Origin: Verrucomicrobiota bacterium | GTDB taxonomy: Bacteria; Verrucomicrobiota; Verrucomicrobiia; Limisphaerales; UBA8199 | Assembly (NCBI GenBank): GCA_003176045.1 | Contig: PSRM01000182.1 | Span: 1 to 64,000, forward strand | Direction: 5' to 3' | Length of the DNA stretch: 64,000 nucleotides | Shown here: positions 5,769-12,327 of the stretch, in pieces | How positions within the stretch are numbered: the first letter of the stretch is position 1 | Layout of the letters: the number at the start of each line of letters is the position of its first letter | Translations under genes and position numbers: made by a program | The notes under the pieces: model-generated | Told to the model about the DNA's origin: nothing | Seen by the model: only the letters and a program-made list of their open reading frames with translations | Database searches by the model: none

Positions 5769-6239
5769 TCAGGGTTTTCGCAGCCGGTAGAATCTTGCAG
5801 CCAGGGTGGGGAAGGTGACGGGATTCGCTGACCCGCTCAGTGAGTTTGTCCAGTTGGCAGGCGTCAGGCTCCAGGTTTCCTGCAACACGAAGCCGGGAGT
5901 ATTCGGTGTCCAGGAAATTGTGGCACTGCCCGGCGCGGCCGGCGCGATGGTCAGGAGCGGAGAGCCCTCCACTTGCACCGCTTGCGGCAAAACCCAGAAC
6001 CCGCCTGTGACCGAGAATTGTCCATTGGTCATGGTCGGCCCGGCATCATGCTGGCCGATAGTTCCGCTGAGGGCGTACTGCGCGTTCGTGCTGTTGCCGC
6101 CACCGCCGGCAATCTTGAACCAATCAATCGAATACTGCGCCCTGGCGGAAAACACCAAACACCAACTGGCGGCAAACACCAAACACCAAAGACCAAACAC
6201 CAAATAAGCTCGAAGCCCGGATGGTTTCATAATTCTCAC
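5769..6239 (-). CDS. Small secreted hypothetical protein
   Basis: 156 aa; signal peptide AYLVFGLWCLVFAASWCLVFSARAQ; body typical of Verrucomicrobia secreted proteins (YALSGTIGQHDAGPTMTNGQFSVTGGFW). Confidence 0.75.
   Translation of the reverse strand: MRIMKPSGLRAYLVFGLWCLVFAASWCLVFSARAQYSIDWFKIAGGGGNSTNAQYALSGTIGQHDAGPTMTNGQFSVTGGFWVLPQAVQVEGSPLLTIAPAAPGSATISWTPNTPGFVLQETWSLTPANWTNSLSGSANPVTFPTLAARFYRLRKP
6151..6206. repeat. (aacacca)n heptamer array inside signal-peptide coding region
   Basis: aacaccaaacaccaactggcggcaaacaccaaacaccaaagaccaaacaccaaata: two plus four 7-nt units. Confidence 0.85.
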
Positions 6240-6330: not shown

Positions 6331-9300
6331 TCATTGGATTTTCCAGAACTCGGCGACGGCAAAAATGTATTGATTAGCATCGCCCCAAGTGAAGGTGTGC
6401 AAAGTGCCAAGGCCTTCATTGGCACGGCCAGTCTCGCAATACTGCTGCACCTGCACGGTAGTCGTGGCGCCGAGGGTGAATTGGCCATCAATAAGTGAGT
6501 GGTCATTCCCCCCGATTGTGCCGCTGGGGCTATAACCAACCGTACCGAAGAGGAGATTCAGGCCGCCGGCGGTGCGCAAGCGGGCCTGATGCGTATCAAC
6601 GCGGAAGGCAGGCACGGCAATGTGGCATTGGTAAGTTCCGGCGGGCAGAGTGATGTCACCGCTGCCATTTGTGGACCCGAGGTTGAAAGTACTGGCCAGT
6701 ACGACATTGAAGTTGCGCCAATTGTTGGTGCCGGTCACCGAACTGCCGGCCGGCGCGTTGGCGGTGACTTCCGCAATCTTGACGTAAGGCGCCGAGCCAT
6801 ACAGCGGGCCGGTGAAAAGATTCGTGCCGGTGAACACGTTCGAGCCGCTGAAGATTTGGGTGCCGTTGAGCAATGCAACATTCGGGGAGAGGCGGGGATC
6901 GGCGATAGTGCCGACGAGGTTGGTCGCATTTAGGTTCGTCAACCCGCCGCCGTTGCCAATGTACGTGCCTGTCAGCGTCAGGCCGGTCTCGCCGTTGGTC
7001 ACGACTGCCGAGGGCAGACTGGCCAGGCTCAGGTTCGTCAACCCGCTGCCGTTGCCAGTGAACGTGCCGGTGGCGAGAACATTGCCGGCGACGTGCAGGG
7101 GGGCCTGCGGATCAGTAGTGCCGATGCCGACATTGCTGTTGCTGCTCAGGGTCAGGGGGTACAGCCCGCCAGTTTGGTTCTTGAAAATGAGTTTGCCCTG
7201 CCCTTCGCCGGCGGCTGCTCCAGTCGAAAAAATGAAATAATCCTTTCCGCCCGCCGTCGCGGTGGCGTCCAGGCTCAAGAAGGCGCCATCAGGTGCGCTG
7301 CTGCCAACCGAAATTTTGAGGTGGGGAAATGGGTTCGTGCCGACGACGTGGAGCGGCGCAATCGGACTATTGGTGCCGATGCCGACCCAGCCACTGAAGA
7401 GATTGGTGCCTGCGAAGGTTTGGGGGTTGCGATCCAGCAGCGCCACGTCGGGCAAGAGGCGCGCGTTAGCTACCGTGCCAACGAGGTTGGTCGCGTTGAG
7501 ATTTGTCAAACCGCCGCCGTTCCCGTTGAACGCGCCCGTCAGCGTCACACTTATTGCATTATTATTCGTCACGACAGCGGCGGGCAATTGCGCAAGCGGA
7601 ATCGTGCCGCTGGAAAGTTGCGAGGCATTGAGGTTGGTCAAGCCGCCGCCGTTGCCAGTGAAAGCGCCGGACAGCTGGTTGTTTGCATTGGTCGCTACGA
7701 CCACACCCGCAAAACGATTCGTGCCGGCAAAGACATTCGTCCCGTTAAACAGGGCCACGTTGGTGGAAAGGCTCCCGTCAGGCACGATGCCGCTGGTCAG
7801 ATTGCCCGCGTTGAGGTTGATCAGACCGCTGCCGCTGCCAGTTAGTGTGCCTTCAACGAGGAGATTGCCTGCCACGTGCAACTTCGCCTGTGGGGCATTA
7901 GTCCCGATTCCCACGTATCCGGAGTATCCAGGAGGATTTACCACCATTATGGTGGCGCCGCCATTGGTGGGCGCCACTAGCGTTTCGAATAAATAGTCCC
8001 AACTCGCGTTAGCGTCGGCTCTGCCGCCGGAGTAAGCGTTGGTCGTGTTAACATCGGTCCACGAAGAATTCACGGAGGGGGCGCTGAATCGAATAGTATA
8101 TTGATGGCCTGCTTGTACCAATAGAGGAGAACCCAGGGAGTTTGTCTGAAATCGGGTACCGAGCAAGGGCAGCCAGGTTACAGATTGTGTAGCCAGCAGG
8201 GTGCCGCTGACACCCTCCCCATCATAAATGCGTATCGATCCCAGAGAACTGGATGGGTGGGTTGGAGAACCGACGCCCAGGATGATGGTTGTCAGTCCTC
8301 CACTCATACCTGCTGTAAATGATTGCCATGGGTCCGTAGGCGCAGTGATAGCAGTCTTAACTGTCTCCTGTTGATCCAACGCGCTCGCCCCCGAGACAAT
8401 CGTATCTGCCACCTGCTGCGGGCCCGAGAAGGCGTTGCCGCCTGCGCGCAATGCGACATTGGTAGAAAGGTTCGTGTCGGCAACTGTGCCCACCAGATTG
8501 GTTGTGTTGAGATTCGTCAGGCCGGCGCCGTTACCGGTGATGGTCCCGGCAGAGAAATTTCCGCTGCCGTCGCGTTTCACAATCGAATTCGGCGTATTGG
8601 CGCTGGTGGCTGAGTTGGCGGCAATGGCGCCATTGGCCACGGCCGTCGCCGTCTGTCCGCCAACCGCGGCGACGACCGTACCCGACTGAGTGCCAGTCAC
8701 GTCGCCGGCGAGAGAACCTGAGAACCCTGTGGCCGTTGTCGCAGATGTGGCCGTCGTCGCCGTCGCCGCATTGCCACTGATACTGATGCCCGCCGTGCCG
8801 GCAGCAATACTGGCGGGATTTAATGCGGTCAGGCCGCTGCCGTTGCCGAAATGGTTGCCGGACAGAGTGTTATTGACATTGGTCGCGACAACAACGTTGC
8901 TGAATCGGTTCGTGCCGGAAAAGACGTTTGTGCCGTTGAGCAAGGCCACGTTAGTCGAAAGTCGCTGGTCGGAAAGTATTCCAACGAGGTTGGTGGCACT
9001 GAGGGCAGTCAAGCCCGATCCATTTCCGGAGAAGCTATTGGCGGTATTGGTCAGGACATTGGCTCCGCTGAAAGTTTGACTGGCATTGAGCAACACGACA
9101 TTGGTTGAGAGCCGCGCGTCGGCCACGGTGCCACTGGCCAGACTCGTCGCGTTCAGACCCGCCAGGCCGGAACCGTCGCCGATGAAGCGGCCGCCATAGC
9201 CGGTGGGCACATTGAGGAGCACGCTCAACGAGTTGCCACCATAGTTCACACTGATCAAGTCAGGATGCCCATCCCCGTTGACGTCCGCCGCCACGACGGA

Positions 9301-12300
9301 CTCGGGGTTGGCGCCCACGCCCGGTGAGGACGACAGACCGAAGACGCCGCGGCCGTTGTTTGTCAGGACTGAGACGGTGCTGTCGCCAAAGTTGGCGGTG
9401 ATCACATCTACCTTGCCGTCGCCGTTGACGTCCGCCGTGATCAGTCCATAAGGGCCGCTGCCCGCAGCCGGTGTCGAGGCCACTGCGAAGCCGTGACCAT
9501 TGTTGGTCAGCACCGAAACGTTATAGGTTAGATACTGGTGCGTGCAGATCAGGTCCATTCTCCCATCCCCGTTGACATCCGCGGCTGTGATAAAAGCAGG
9601 AAAAGGATTTACGCCGAGTGTGGAATTCAGACCGAAGACGCCGCTGCCGTTGTTCGTCCATACCGTCAGCGTGTAGGAATTGCGGTCGGCGCTGATCAAA
9701 TCCACGCTGCCATCGTTGTTGATATCTGCCGCAACGACTGAATAGGGCCCCTGACCCACTGGCAGTGTGGCCGCGACCGCAAAGCCGCCGCTGCCATCGT
9801 TGGTCACCACCGTAAGCGTGTTATCTTGTGAGTTCGCGGTGATCAAATCCACCTTGTGGTCTCCATTGACATCCGCAGCTACGACAGTATATGGCTGCCC
9901 GCCCACGCCTACTGTGACAGAGACCACAAAGCGGCCGCTGCCGTCGTTGGTCAGCACCGTAATTGAATTGCCAAACACGTTGGCGGTGATCAAATCCATG
10001 TTGCCATCGTTGTTGACATCGGCCGCGGTAACACAAACCGGGTAGCCCGCCACCGCCGGCGAAGAAGACACAACAAAATTGCCGTAGCCGTCGTTGGTCA
10101 GCACTGTCAGCGTACTGGAGAAAGAGTTCGCGCTGATCAAATCCACCTTGCCATCGTTGTTAACATCGGCTGCCACGACCGACTCCGGCGAGCTCCCTAC
10201 GCCTGGCGAGGAGGATAGTGAAAAGGCGCCGTAGGCGTTGGTAGTCCAGGCGATGGCTCCCTGCGAGTTGACCGACACCAGGTTGACGTTGGTTATGCTG
10301 GCGCCGTTGCCGCTGAACGTGCCCCCCAACGTCCCGCCGCTGGCAACAATATTGCCGACGACGTGCAGGCTCGCCTGCGGATCGGTGGTGCCGATGCCGA
10401 CATTGCCCTTGCTGCTCAACGTCAGCGGATAGGATCCGCCGGTTTGGTTCTTGAAAATCAGTTTGCCCGGCCCTTCACCGGCGGAGTTACCGGTGGAAAA
10501 AATCAAATACTCGTTTCCGTTTGTCGTGGCGGTGGCATCCACGCTCAAGAAGGCGCCATATGGTGCGTTGCTGCCGGCCGCCACTTTGAAGTGGGGAAAG
10601 GCGTTTGTGCCGACCACATGGAGGGGCGCGATCGGACTGGCGGTGCCGATGCCGACGCTCCCGCTGCTGACAATCTGGTTCCCGGTGAACGTATTGCCGT
10701 TGTTGCGCAACGCGACATTGCCGCTTAGGAGCGCATCTGAGACCGTGCCGACGAGGTTAGTCGCGTTCAGGCTGGTCAGAGCAGAACCATCGCCGGCGAA
10801 ACTGGCCGCAGTCACTGCGCCGGCGGAGAAATTGCCGCTGGCGTCGCGCTTTACGATCGTGCTCGGCGTGTTCGCGCTGGTGGCCGCGTTGGCGGCGGCG
10901 GCGCCGCTGGCAATCGCCGCCGCGGTCTGCCCGCCCACATGCCCAACAACGGTGGTGGACTGGCCGCCGGTCACGTCGCCAGCGAGTGAACCTGAGAAGC
11001 CTGTAGCCGTTGTCGCCGTTGTGGCTGTCGTCGCCGTCGCCGCATTGCCACTGATACTGATGCCGGCGCTTCCGGCAGCTATGGTGGCAGGATTTAATGC
11101 GGTCAAACCGCTGCCGTTGCCGGAGAACGATGTCGCAGTCACGGTGCCGTTGACTTGGAGTTTCGATGCCGGATTGCTCACACCGATTCCCACATTGCCG
11201 GTGCCTTTAATGCGCATGATTTCGGTCATATTCGCGCTGCTGCCATAGCCGAAGGCGATATCAGCAGCAACCACGTCGCTGTGAATCTGGAGCAGGTTGC
11301 CCTGAACGCCGAAGCCGACGTTGTTTCCTGAACTCCCGAAGAGGCTGATTTTGTCACCCACCGTATCGGCAAAGTTCAATGGGAAACCGGGCGTAGTCGT
11401 GCCGATGCCGACTTTGCCGTTGCCGCCCAAGGTCAGGGGTATGAGACCATCGGTCTGGTTTTTGAAAACCAGATTGCCTGGACCTTCGCCGGCCGAGCCT
11501 CCAGTTGAAAAAATAAAGTACTCCTTTCCCGCTATCGCGCCGGCGTCCAGGCTTAAAAATGCGCCGTACGGCGCGCCGGGCCCCGCAGCGATCTTGAAGT
11601 GCGGGTAGGGGTTGTTGCCCAACACTTGCAGCGGCGTTCCGGTGAAGGTTTGGCCGTTGCCATTGAGCAAAGCAACGTTCGCTGAGAGCCGCGCGTCCGC
11701 CAGCATACCACTGCTTAAACTGGATGCGTTCAACGCCCCCAATCCAGAGCCGTCGCCGCTGAAGGATCCGGACAGTGTCAATCCACCGGCGCCGTTGGTA
11801 ATTACCGAGGCTGGCAACTGGCCTGCACTGAGAGTGCCCGAAATGTTCGACGCGGCGACGGAATTGGCCATGGCCGCGGTTGAGGCGCTGTTCGCCGTAT
11901 CGGCAGAACCGGCGGCGGTGGCACGCACCGCATACGGTGTGGCCGTTACCTGCTGGCGCGGCGACAGCGTCGAGAAATCGCTGACACTGCCATTGGTACG
12001 AACGGCGATTTCCAGCCAGCGATCCGGGCCGGAGAAAATGCCGTTGCCGAAGTCCAGCGTCACAGTGAACAAGCCGTTACTCGCCCCTATCGCGGTGTTC
12101 GTGAGAACGCCGCCAACCTGGTTTCCTCCGGTCAGCGCGTCGTAAATGGCGAAGCGCAGATCGTAGCTGCCATTGGCCGGGCCGCCGGAGTCATTGAGCC
12201 GGCCCTGATAAGTGAAAGCGGTTCCTTGCGCATCCGCCTTCAGGCAGAACGTGATTGCGATCAGAACAAATAGAACAACTGCGATGCGGTTGGTTTTCAT

Positions 12301-12327
12301 AGATGAGTTGGAATGGTTATTTGTCAT
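6331..12327 (-). CDS. Giant secreted repeat protein with tail-fibre-like GNGSGLTNLNATNLVG repeats and an FG-GAP/VCBS-like repeat block
   Basis: 1998-aa single ORF with signal peptide; recurrent GNGSGLTxLNATNLVGTVxDxxLSTNVALLNG; repeated AADVNGDGKVDLITAN-type motifs encoded around 9200-10260. Confidence 0.85.
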   Translation of the reverse strand: MTNNHSNSSMKTNRIAVVLFVLIAITFCLKADAQGTAFTYQGRLNDSGGPANGSYDLRFAIYDALTGGNQVGGVLTNTAIGASNGLFTVTLDFGNGIFSGPDRWLEIAVRTNGSVSDFSTLSPRQQVTATPYAVRATAAGSADTANSASTAAMANSVAASNISGTLSAGQLPASVITNGAGGLTLSGSFSGDGSGLGALNASSLSSGMLADARLSANVALLNGNGQTFTGTPLQVLGNNPYPHFKIAAGPGAPYGAFLSLDAGAIAGKEYFIFSTGGSAGEGPGNLVFKNQTDGLIPLTLGGNGKVGIGTTTPGFPLNFADTVGDKISLFGSSGNNVGFGVQGNLLQIHSDVVAADIAFGYGSSANMTEIMRIKGTGNVGIGVSNPASKLQVNGTVTATSFSGNGSGLTALNPATIAAGSAGISISGNAATATTATTATTATGFSGSLAGDVTGGQSTTVVGHVGGQTAAAIASGAAAANAATSANTPSTIVKRDASGNFSAGAVTAASFAGDGSALTSLNATNLVGTVSDALLSGNVALRNNGNTFTGNQIVSSGSVGIGTASPIAPLHVVGTNAFPHFKVAAGSNAPYGAFLSVDATATTNGNEYLIFSTGNSAGEGPGKLIFKNQTGGSYPLTLSSKGNVGIGTTDPQASLHVVGNIVASGGTLGGTFSGNGASITNVNLVSVNSQGAIAWTTNAYGAFSLSSSPGVGSSPESVVAADVNNDGKVDLISANSFSSTLTVLTNDGYGNFVVSSSPAVAGYPVCVTAADVNNDGNMDLITANVFGNSITVLTNDGSGRFVVSVTVGVGGQPYTVVAADVNGDHKVDLITANSQDNTLTVVTNDGSGGFAVAATLPVGQGPYSVVAADINNDGSVDLISADRNSYTLTVWTNNGSGVFGLNSTLGVNPFPAFITAADVNGDGRMDLICTHQYLTYNVSVLTNNGHGFAVASTPAAGSGPYGLITADVNGDGKVDVITANFGDSTVSVLTNNGRGVFGLSSSPGVGANPESVVAADVNGDGHPDLISVNYGGNSLSVLLNVPTGYGGRFIGDGSGLAGLNATSLASGTVADARLSTNVVLLNASQTFSGANVLTNTANSFSGNGSGLTALSATNLVGILSDQRLSTNVALLNGTNVFSGTNRFSNVVVATNVNNTLSGNHFGNGSGLTALNPASIAAGTAGISISGNAATATTATSATTATGFSGSLAGDVTGTQSGTVVAAVGGQTATAVANGAIAANSATSANTPNSIVKRDGSGNFSAGTITGNGAGLTNLNTTNLVGTVADTNLSTNVALRAGGNAFSGPQQVADTIVSGASALDQQETVKTAITAPTDPWQSFTAGMSGGLTTIILGVGSPTHPSSSLGSIRIYDGEGVSGTLLATQSVTWLPLLGTRFQTNSLGSPLLVQAGHQYTIRFSAPSVNSSWTDVNTTNAYSGGRADANASWDYLFETLVAPTNGGATIMVVNPPGYSGYVGIGTNAPQAKLHVAGNLLVEGTLTGSGSGLINLNAGNLTSGIVPDGSLSTNVALFNGTNVFAGTNRFAGVVVATNANNQLSGAFTGNGGGLTNLNASQLSSGTIPLAQLPAAVVTNNNAISVTLTGAFNGNGGGLTNLNATNLVGTVANARLLPDVALLDRNPQTFAGTNLFSGWVGIGTNSPIAPLHVVGTNPFPHLKISVGSSAPDGAFLSLDATATAGGKDYFIFSTGAAAGEGQGKLIFKNQTGGLYPLTLSSNSNVGIGTTDPQAPLHVAGNVLATGTFTGNGSGLTNLSLASLPSAVVTNGETGLTLTGTYIGNGGGLTNLNATNLVGTIADPRLSPNVALLNGTQIFSGSNVFTGTNLFTGPLYGSAPYVKIAEVTANAPAGSSVTGTNNWRNFNVVLASTFNLGSTNGSGDITLPAGTYQCHIAVPAFRVDTHQARLRTAGGLNLLFGTVGYSPSGTIGGNDHSLIDGQFTLGATTTVQVQQYCETGRANEGLGTLHTFTWGDANQYIFAVAEFWKIQ

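Follow-up and report, generated by a model that had tools for sequence, protein, structure and literature searches.

Heptamer repeats are described as a class of bacterial SSR (PMC4692102, PMC4679880), and dispersed palindromes lying inside coding genes have been reported from Rickettsia (Ogata et al.; PMC10969869). Repeat DNA has also been co-opted into membrane proteins in the case of the PARCELs (PMC2996958). A literature search, mostly of journals open without subscription, returned no description of heptamer arrays as signal-peptide cores, nor any report of arrays of this kind from Limisphaerales or Verrucomicrobia. The locus described here lies in a 64,000-nucleotide stretch of a Limisphaerales genome (contig PSRM01000182.1), referred to below as the window, and joins heptamer arrays to the N-terminus of a predicted exported protein.

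The window gene and its heptamer arrays

The gene occupies positions 5772–6230 of the minus strand and encodes a 153-residue protein of the QYSIDWF..GGGG family, for which no Pfam or NCBIfam family was matched at E 1. Its open reading frame (5769–6239, minus strand) contains a further in-frame start, GTG at 6239, besides the ATG at 6230, and translation from the latter gives MKPSGLRAYLVFGLWCLVFAASWCLVFSARA-QYSIDWFKIAGGGG. The predicted signal peptide comprises residues 1–31 (6138–6230, minus strand) with cleavage at SARA/QYS, a point placed at the boundary of the conserved domain in the family alignment, where homology starts at (A)Q-YSIDW. A Sec-type signal was defined by a positive n-region, a hydrophobic h-region and small residues at −3 and −1; under this crude rule (not SignalP) the peptide fits the layout as MKPSGLRA / YLVFGLWCLVFAASWCLVF / SARA, followed by Q. 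Its maximum KD over 11 residues, 2.58, equals the median of the 261 signal peptides called crudely in the genome. The peptide probably functions as an export signal, with Sec the likely route rather than another. About 100 bp upstream, on the same strand, a long repetitive open reading frame of 1998 residues (window 6331–12327) also has a signal-like N-terminus.

The plus strand between 6150 and 6204 reads (CAAACAC)n in two blocks (6150–6165 and 6173–6204) that are linked by ctggcgg. On the minus strand the blocks become (TTTGGTG)n and encode approximately residues 10–27 of the protein, after which QYSIDW follows. The first array (6173–6204, minus strand; TRF period 7, 4.6 copies; period-7 run score 18) encodes the core LVFGLWCLVF, and the second, TTGGTGTTTGGTGTTT (6150–6165, minus strand), recognized by reading the marked repeat in the sequence, encodes WCLVF. 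Overlapping both is a 24-bp in-frame tandem duplication within the signal peptide (6142–6189, minus strand; TRF period 24, 2.0 copies, 95% matches). Each copy consists of two heptamers and CCGCCAG, or eight codons, read as WCLVFAAS and WCLVFSAR; without one copy the signal would be MKPSGLRAYLVFGLWCLVFSARA, with a maximum KD of 2.35. The hydrophobic core of the predicted signal peptide is therefore encoded by the array, as the preliminary description had proposed for the minus strand of (aacacca)n, and sequence, TRF and translation of the reading frame all bear this out. The same description had named, as the outcome contrary to its reading, a true initiation codon lying beyond the array; this was looked for, and no ATG, GTG or TTG is present from the end of the array to the QYS of the mature domain. 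GTG and TTG codons do occur within the array, and initiation at its end would abolish the signal.

With a period of seven, each base of the unit falls at the second codon position once every seven codons, whatever the frame. It follows that the same residues are encoded in all three frames and that hydropathy is set by the T content of the unit. When all stop-free heptamers were computed, mean KD rose from −2.15 for units with no T to 1.85 for units with four. TTTGGTG reads FGVWCLV (KD 2.31) and its complement reads HQTPNTK (KD −2.44). The hydrophobic character that the preliminary description had ascribed to T at second codon positions in all frames is upheld; the reason given for it is sharpened to identity of the encoded residues and to T content. 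Because the seven residues are the same in every frame, a unit that is T-rich and stop-free would offer a usable core in any of them.

Heptameric predicted signals in the QYSIDWF..GGGG family

Members of the family share a conserved mature part and are found in Limisphaerales (Verrucomicrobiota). The source genome itself contains 12 further matches to the window protein, and those relatives from the protein search that carry names are Verrucomicrobiota or Limisphaerales MAGs. The 81 nt located 5′ of the mature domain were scanned in 106 distinct members, with a lag-7 run score of at least 8 as the threshold. Such runs were found in 13 of the 106 signal regions; lags 4, 5, 8, 10 and 13 gave none and lag 11 gave one, and mature windows gave 0–1. 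In the adjacent upstream DNA (120 nt) the count is 4/105, as against 13/106 for the signal region (p 0.02). The units are TTTGGTG in the window gene and L003, TTTCAGC in L188 and L141, CCTTCCT in L148, TTTCTGY in L202 and L210, TTGGTGC in L190, TTTCAAC in L161 and L156 and TTCAACC in L212, and weaker period-7 runs are present in the signal DNA of L181 and L184. Mapping presence or absence of an array onto a maximum-likelihood phylogeny built from the mature domain requires 13 changes, at least 10 of which are forced by well-supported branches, the alignment having 127 columns and the bootstrap values being not fully settled. The predicted signal position is heptameric in independent lineages and its units differ among them; in this family arrays recurrently become the cores of predicted signals.

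In two genomes the array is confined to this position. The only (TTTCAGC)3 array in the 5.7-Mb genome G007, and the only (TTTCTGY)3 array in G058, is the signal peptide of a family member. Two paralogues of G007 (L188 and L183) are 95% identical in mature DNA and 44% identical in the signal region, and just one of them is heptameric. Elsewhere the signal DNA resembles an arm of the dispersed inverted-repeat element of the source genome (see below). For L003, from the source genome, the match extends over 51 of 55 positions and spans the aperiodic TTTCTC junction (score 47, shuffled maximum 22). L190, from a genome belonging to another family of the order (G036), matches at 44 of 54 positions (score 34, shuffled maximum 14), and L181 of that genome also resembles the arm; both are less close to it than L003. 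The element arm is, on alignment, nearly equal to the predicted signal DNA of L003 and similar to that of G036.

Every family member inspected has an N-terminal leader before (A)Q-YSIDW, which argues that arrays replaced an existing signal (turnover). Arrays accordingly appear to replace signals already in place rather than to cause export of a formerly cytosolic protein. The earlier proposal that arrays supply export signals de novo can be kept in part: array cores recur through at least 10 independent changes and in unrelated predicted exported proteins, but the leaders in all inspected members indicate replacement. Comparison with array-free relatives also went against that proposal as worded: their signals are unrelated and equally good.

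Heptamers across the genome and the order

The source genome amounts to 7.74 Mb in 372 contigs, and surveys were made on a 1.48-Mb sample of stretches unless stated otherwise. Period-7 arrays number 251 in 836 kb, whereas every other period from 4 to 13 gives 0–40 at equal score; the excess is not due to chance, and array density is 295 per Mb. AAACACC/TTTGGTG is the commonest dispersed unit. Three copies of TTTGGTG (at most 2 mismatches) give 607 matches genome-wide, overlapping ones counted, and the reversed control gives none; the unit is nearly private to this genome, with 9 matches in others among the 58 genomes searched. Many copies are arms of a dispersed, mostly intergenic inverted-repeat element in which (CAAACAC)n cagagaaac and gtttctc(TGGTGTT)n flank a unique centre, the arm consensus being TTTGGAGTTTGGAGTTTGGTGTTTCTCTGGTGTTTGGTG. 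Examples are seen at about 1490–1660 in each of L021, L023, L031, L034, L036 and L045. The junction occurs 44 times in 1.48 Mb, 25 times with a mirrored arm no more than 220 nt away. As a pattern it has 145 matches in the source genome; 20 of 196 Limisphaerales genomes carry it, the source included, and G191 has 66 copies. The window signal matches the arm only moderately, with a score of 30 against a shuffled maximum of 23, and the TTTCTC junction is absent from it. The window array was rejected as a full copy of the element, as no mirrored arm and no clear junction were seen.

Heptamer signal cores are also found in two unrelated predicted exported proteins, a heparinase II/III-like protein (L084:9231, plus strand; TATTTGC-like) and a multihaem cytochrome (L079:18612, minus strand; TTCACTG-like), and a heptamer run is present in the signal DNA of a GFO/IDH/MocA-like protein (L064). 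The genome-wide survey of N-termini used a home-made gene caller and signal predictor, both of them crude. In the source genome it gave runs in 11 of 261 crude signal peptides and 41 of 2129 internal segments; dropping three false signal calls leaves 8/258 (p 0.15). Curated and pooled with G036 and G191, signals score 11/398 against 52/3228 for internal segments (one-sided p 0.08), and in G191 runs occur in 0 of 59 signal peptides. A strong genome-wide N-terminal enrichment was therefore rejected, the first-pass p of 0.01–0.02 having been lost with the three false calls. On the curated values a general enrichment of arrays at N-termini is not established, and what the preliminary description had expected of N-termini at large is not clearly seen; within the family, signal regions do exceed the DNA upstream of them.

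Arrays also occur as in-frame insertions within genes, and inserts of this kind with coding-like flanks lie at about 40 sampled places. Two lie in frame within leucyl-tRNA synthetase (L083:538–569 and L083:2385–2409) and one within aconitase (L086:18694–18725). Where both flanks are coding-like, 37 of 41 arrays read hydrophilic (mean KD −0.80), as against the hydrophobic reading of arrays in the signal cores. Other arrays stand directly 5′ of starts, as in NuoK-like, SufU/NifU-like and other genes (L065:6753–6798, L076:4648–4678, L085:5234–5265). They read as hydrophobic N-terminal extensions free of stop codons, which a gene caller may include in error. Not every upstream array can be taken for a signal, as the NuoK-like and SufU/NifU-like genes start properly after the array. 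In a prepilin-like reading frame (..SAFTLIELMIV..) a TTTCACG array immediately precedes the pilin motif (L093:8147–8178), with ATG, GTG and TTG absent between the two, and its leader may be encoded by the array.

Proposed origin of the array signals and comparison with known systems

The likely explanation is that the array is translated as a Sec-type h-region, and that heptamers at hand repeatedly rebuild the signal cores of the family. Period-7 arrays are abundant in Limisphaerales, and would derive partly from the arms of dispersed inverted repeats and partly from local events. A T-rich, stop-free array situated upstream of a conserved mature domain would provide a usable hydrophobic core, and the older core would be replaced or rebuilt from whichever heptamer is present. 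Selection would then sort direction, favouring the hydrophobic reading at exported N-termini and the hydrophilic reading inside proteins. Arrival could be by insertion of an element, as for L003 and L190, or by slippage, perhaps as in G007 and G058 and in the 24-bp duplication; the window array was probably gained by one of these routes and not by point mutation. A wider proposal seems unlikely. On this view T-rich arrays would form a standing reservoir of proto-signals that does not depend on frame: because any frame gives the same stop-free hydrophobic heptapeptide, each such array upstream of a gene would be a latent export signal, and signals of the order would regularly be born or replaced by this route, possibly exporting formerly cytosolic protein.

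Arrays may alternatively land and expand everywhere and be passively tolerated, the signal peptide being merely the most permissive coding segment and not a preferred source, with surviving signal arrays in the sole tolerable orientation. This comes close to an even prospect, given the density of arrays throughout the genome, LeuRS and aconitase included, a curated signal-peptide rate not clearly above that of internal coding DNA, and the many arrays just 5′ of true starts, such as those of the SufU/NifU-like and NuoK-like genes. Against it stand the excess of family signal regions over neighbouring upstream DNA and the cases of G007 and G058, which hold the sole genomic array of their unit in a signal peptide. 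That uniqueness is what would be expected from local slippage, a period-7 duplication within pre-existing signal DNA with no arrival of a dispersed repeat. The 24-bp in-frame duplication in the window signal agrees with such slippage, and heptanucleotides are reported as the commonest longer-SSR class in most genomes surveyed (PMC4679880, PMC4692102). Slippage by itself nevertheless remains a somewhat doubtful account, as the window unit is the commonest dispersed unit of its own genome and the dispersed element's aperiodic junction is present in L003, L190 and L181.

It is very improbable that the window array is an annotation artefact, that is, 5′ untranslated sequence ahead of a true downstream start. 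Such a status is likely for several other arrays (those of the NuoK-like and SufU/NifU-like genes), and the codon score of the gene caller set the window start within the array. Against this, the DNA between array and mature domain offers no start codon, and a start at the array end would strip the protein of its signal, although in the family members read a signal precedes (A)Q-YSIDW.

Heptamers as signal cores matter because of the rapid evolution of signal peptides, whose origins can seldom be followed back. In the present case the DNA of origin remains recognizable, and the change recurs at least 10 times within one small family. The frame-independence of period 7 would be a simple reason for this recurrence. 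How export signals arise and turn over is thereby open to direct sequence and reporter tests, and the comparisons made here suggest that repetitive DNA recurrently supplies the material from which such signals are made.

Among described systems, the Rickettsia palindromic elements (RPE) are comparable as dispersed, palindromic repeats tolerated in frame within protein-coding genes; mirrored arms are seen here for copies elsewhere in the genome and not for the window copy. RPEs are MITE-like units of about 150 bp reported in metabolic genes (PMC10969869). The coding part of the present arrays is instead of period 7, reads the same in all frames and serves as a predicted signal core. The heptamers GGGGAYT and GGGAATC of Nostoc and Xanthomonas (PMC4692102) and TAACTGA of Beggiatoaceae (PMC4679880) are likewise genome-specific, dispersed, tandem and mostly near gene boundaries. 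The available portions of these reports discuss them as G-quadruplex formers or translational regulators and describe no role in signal peptides, and TAACTGA has stop codons in one direction. PARCELs resemble the present arrays as palindromic repeat DNA with coding capacity that is co-opted into membrane-targeted proteins, but they encode a 25-residue amphipathic repeat domain rather than a targeting signal (PMC2996958).
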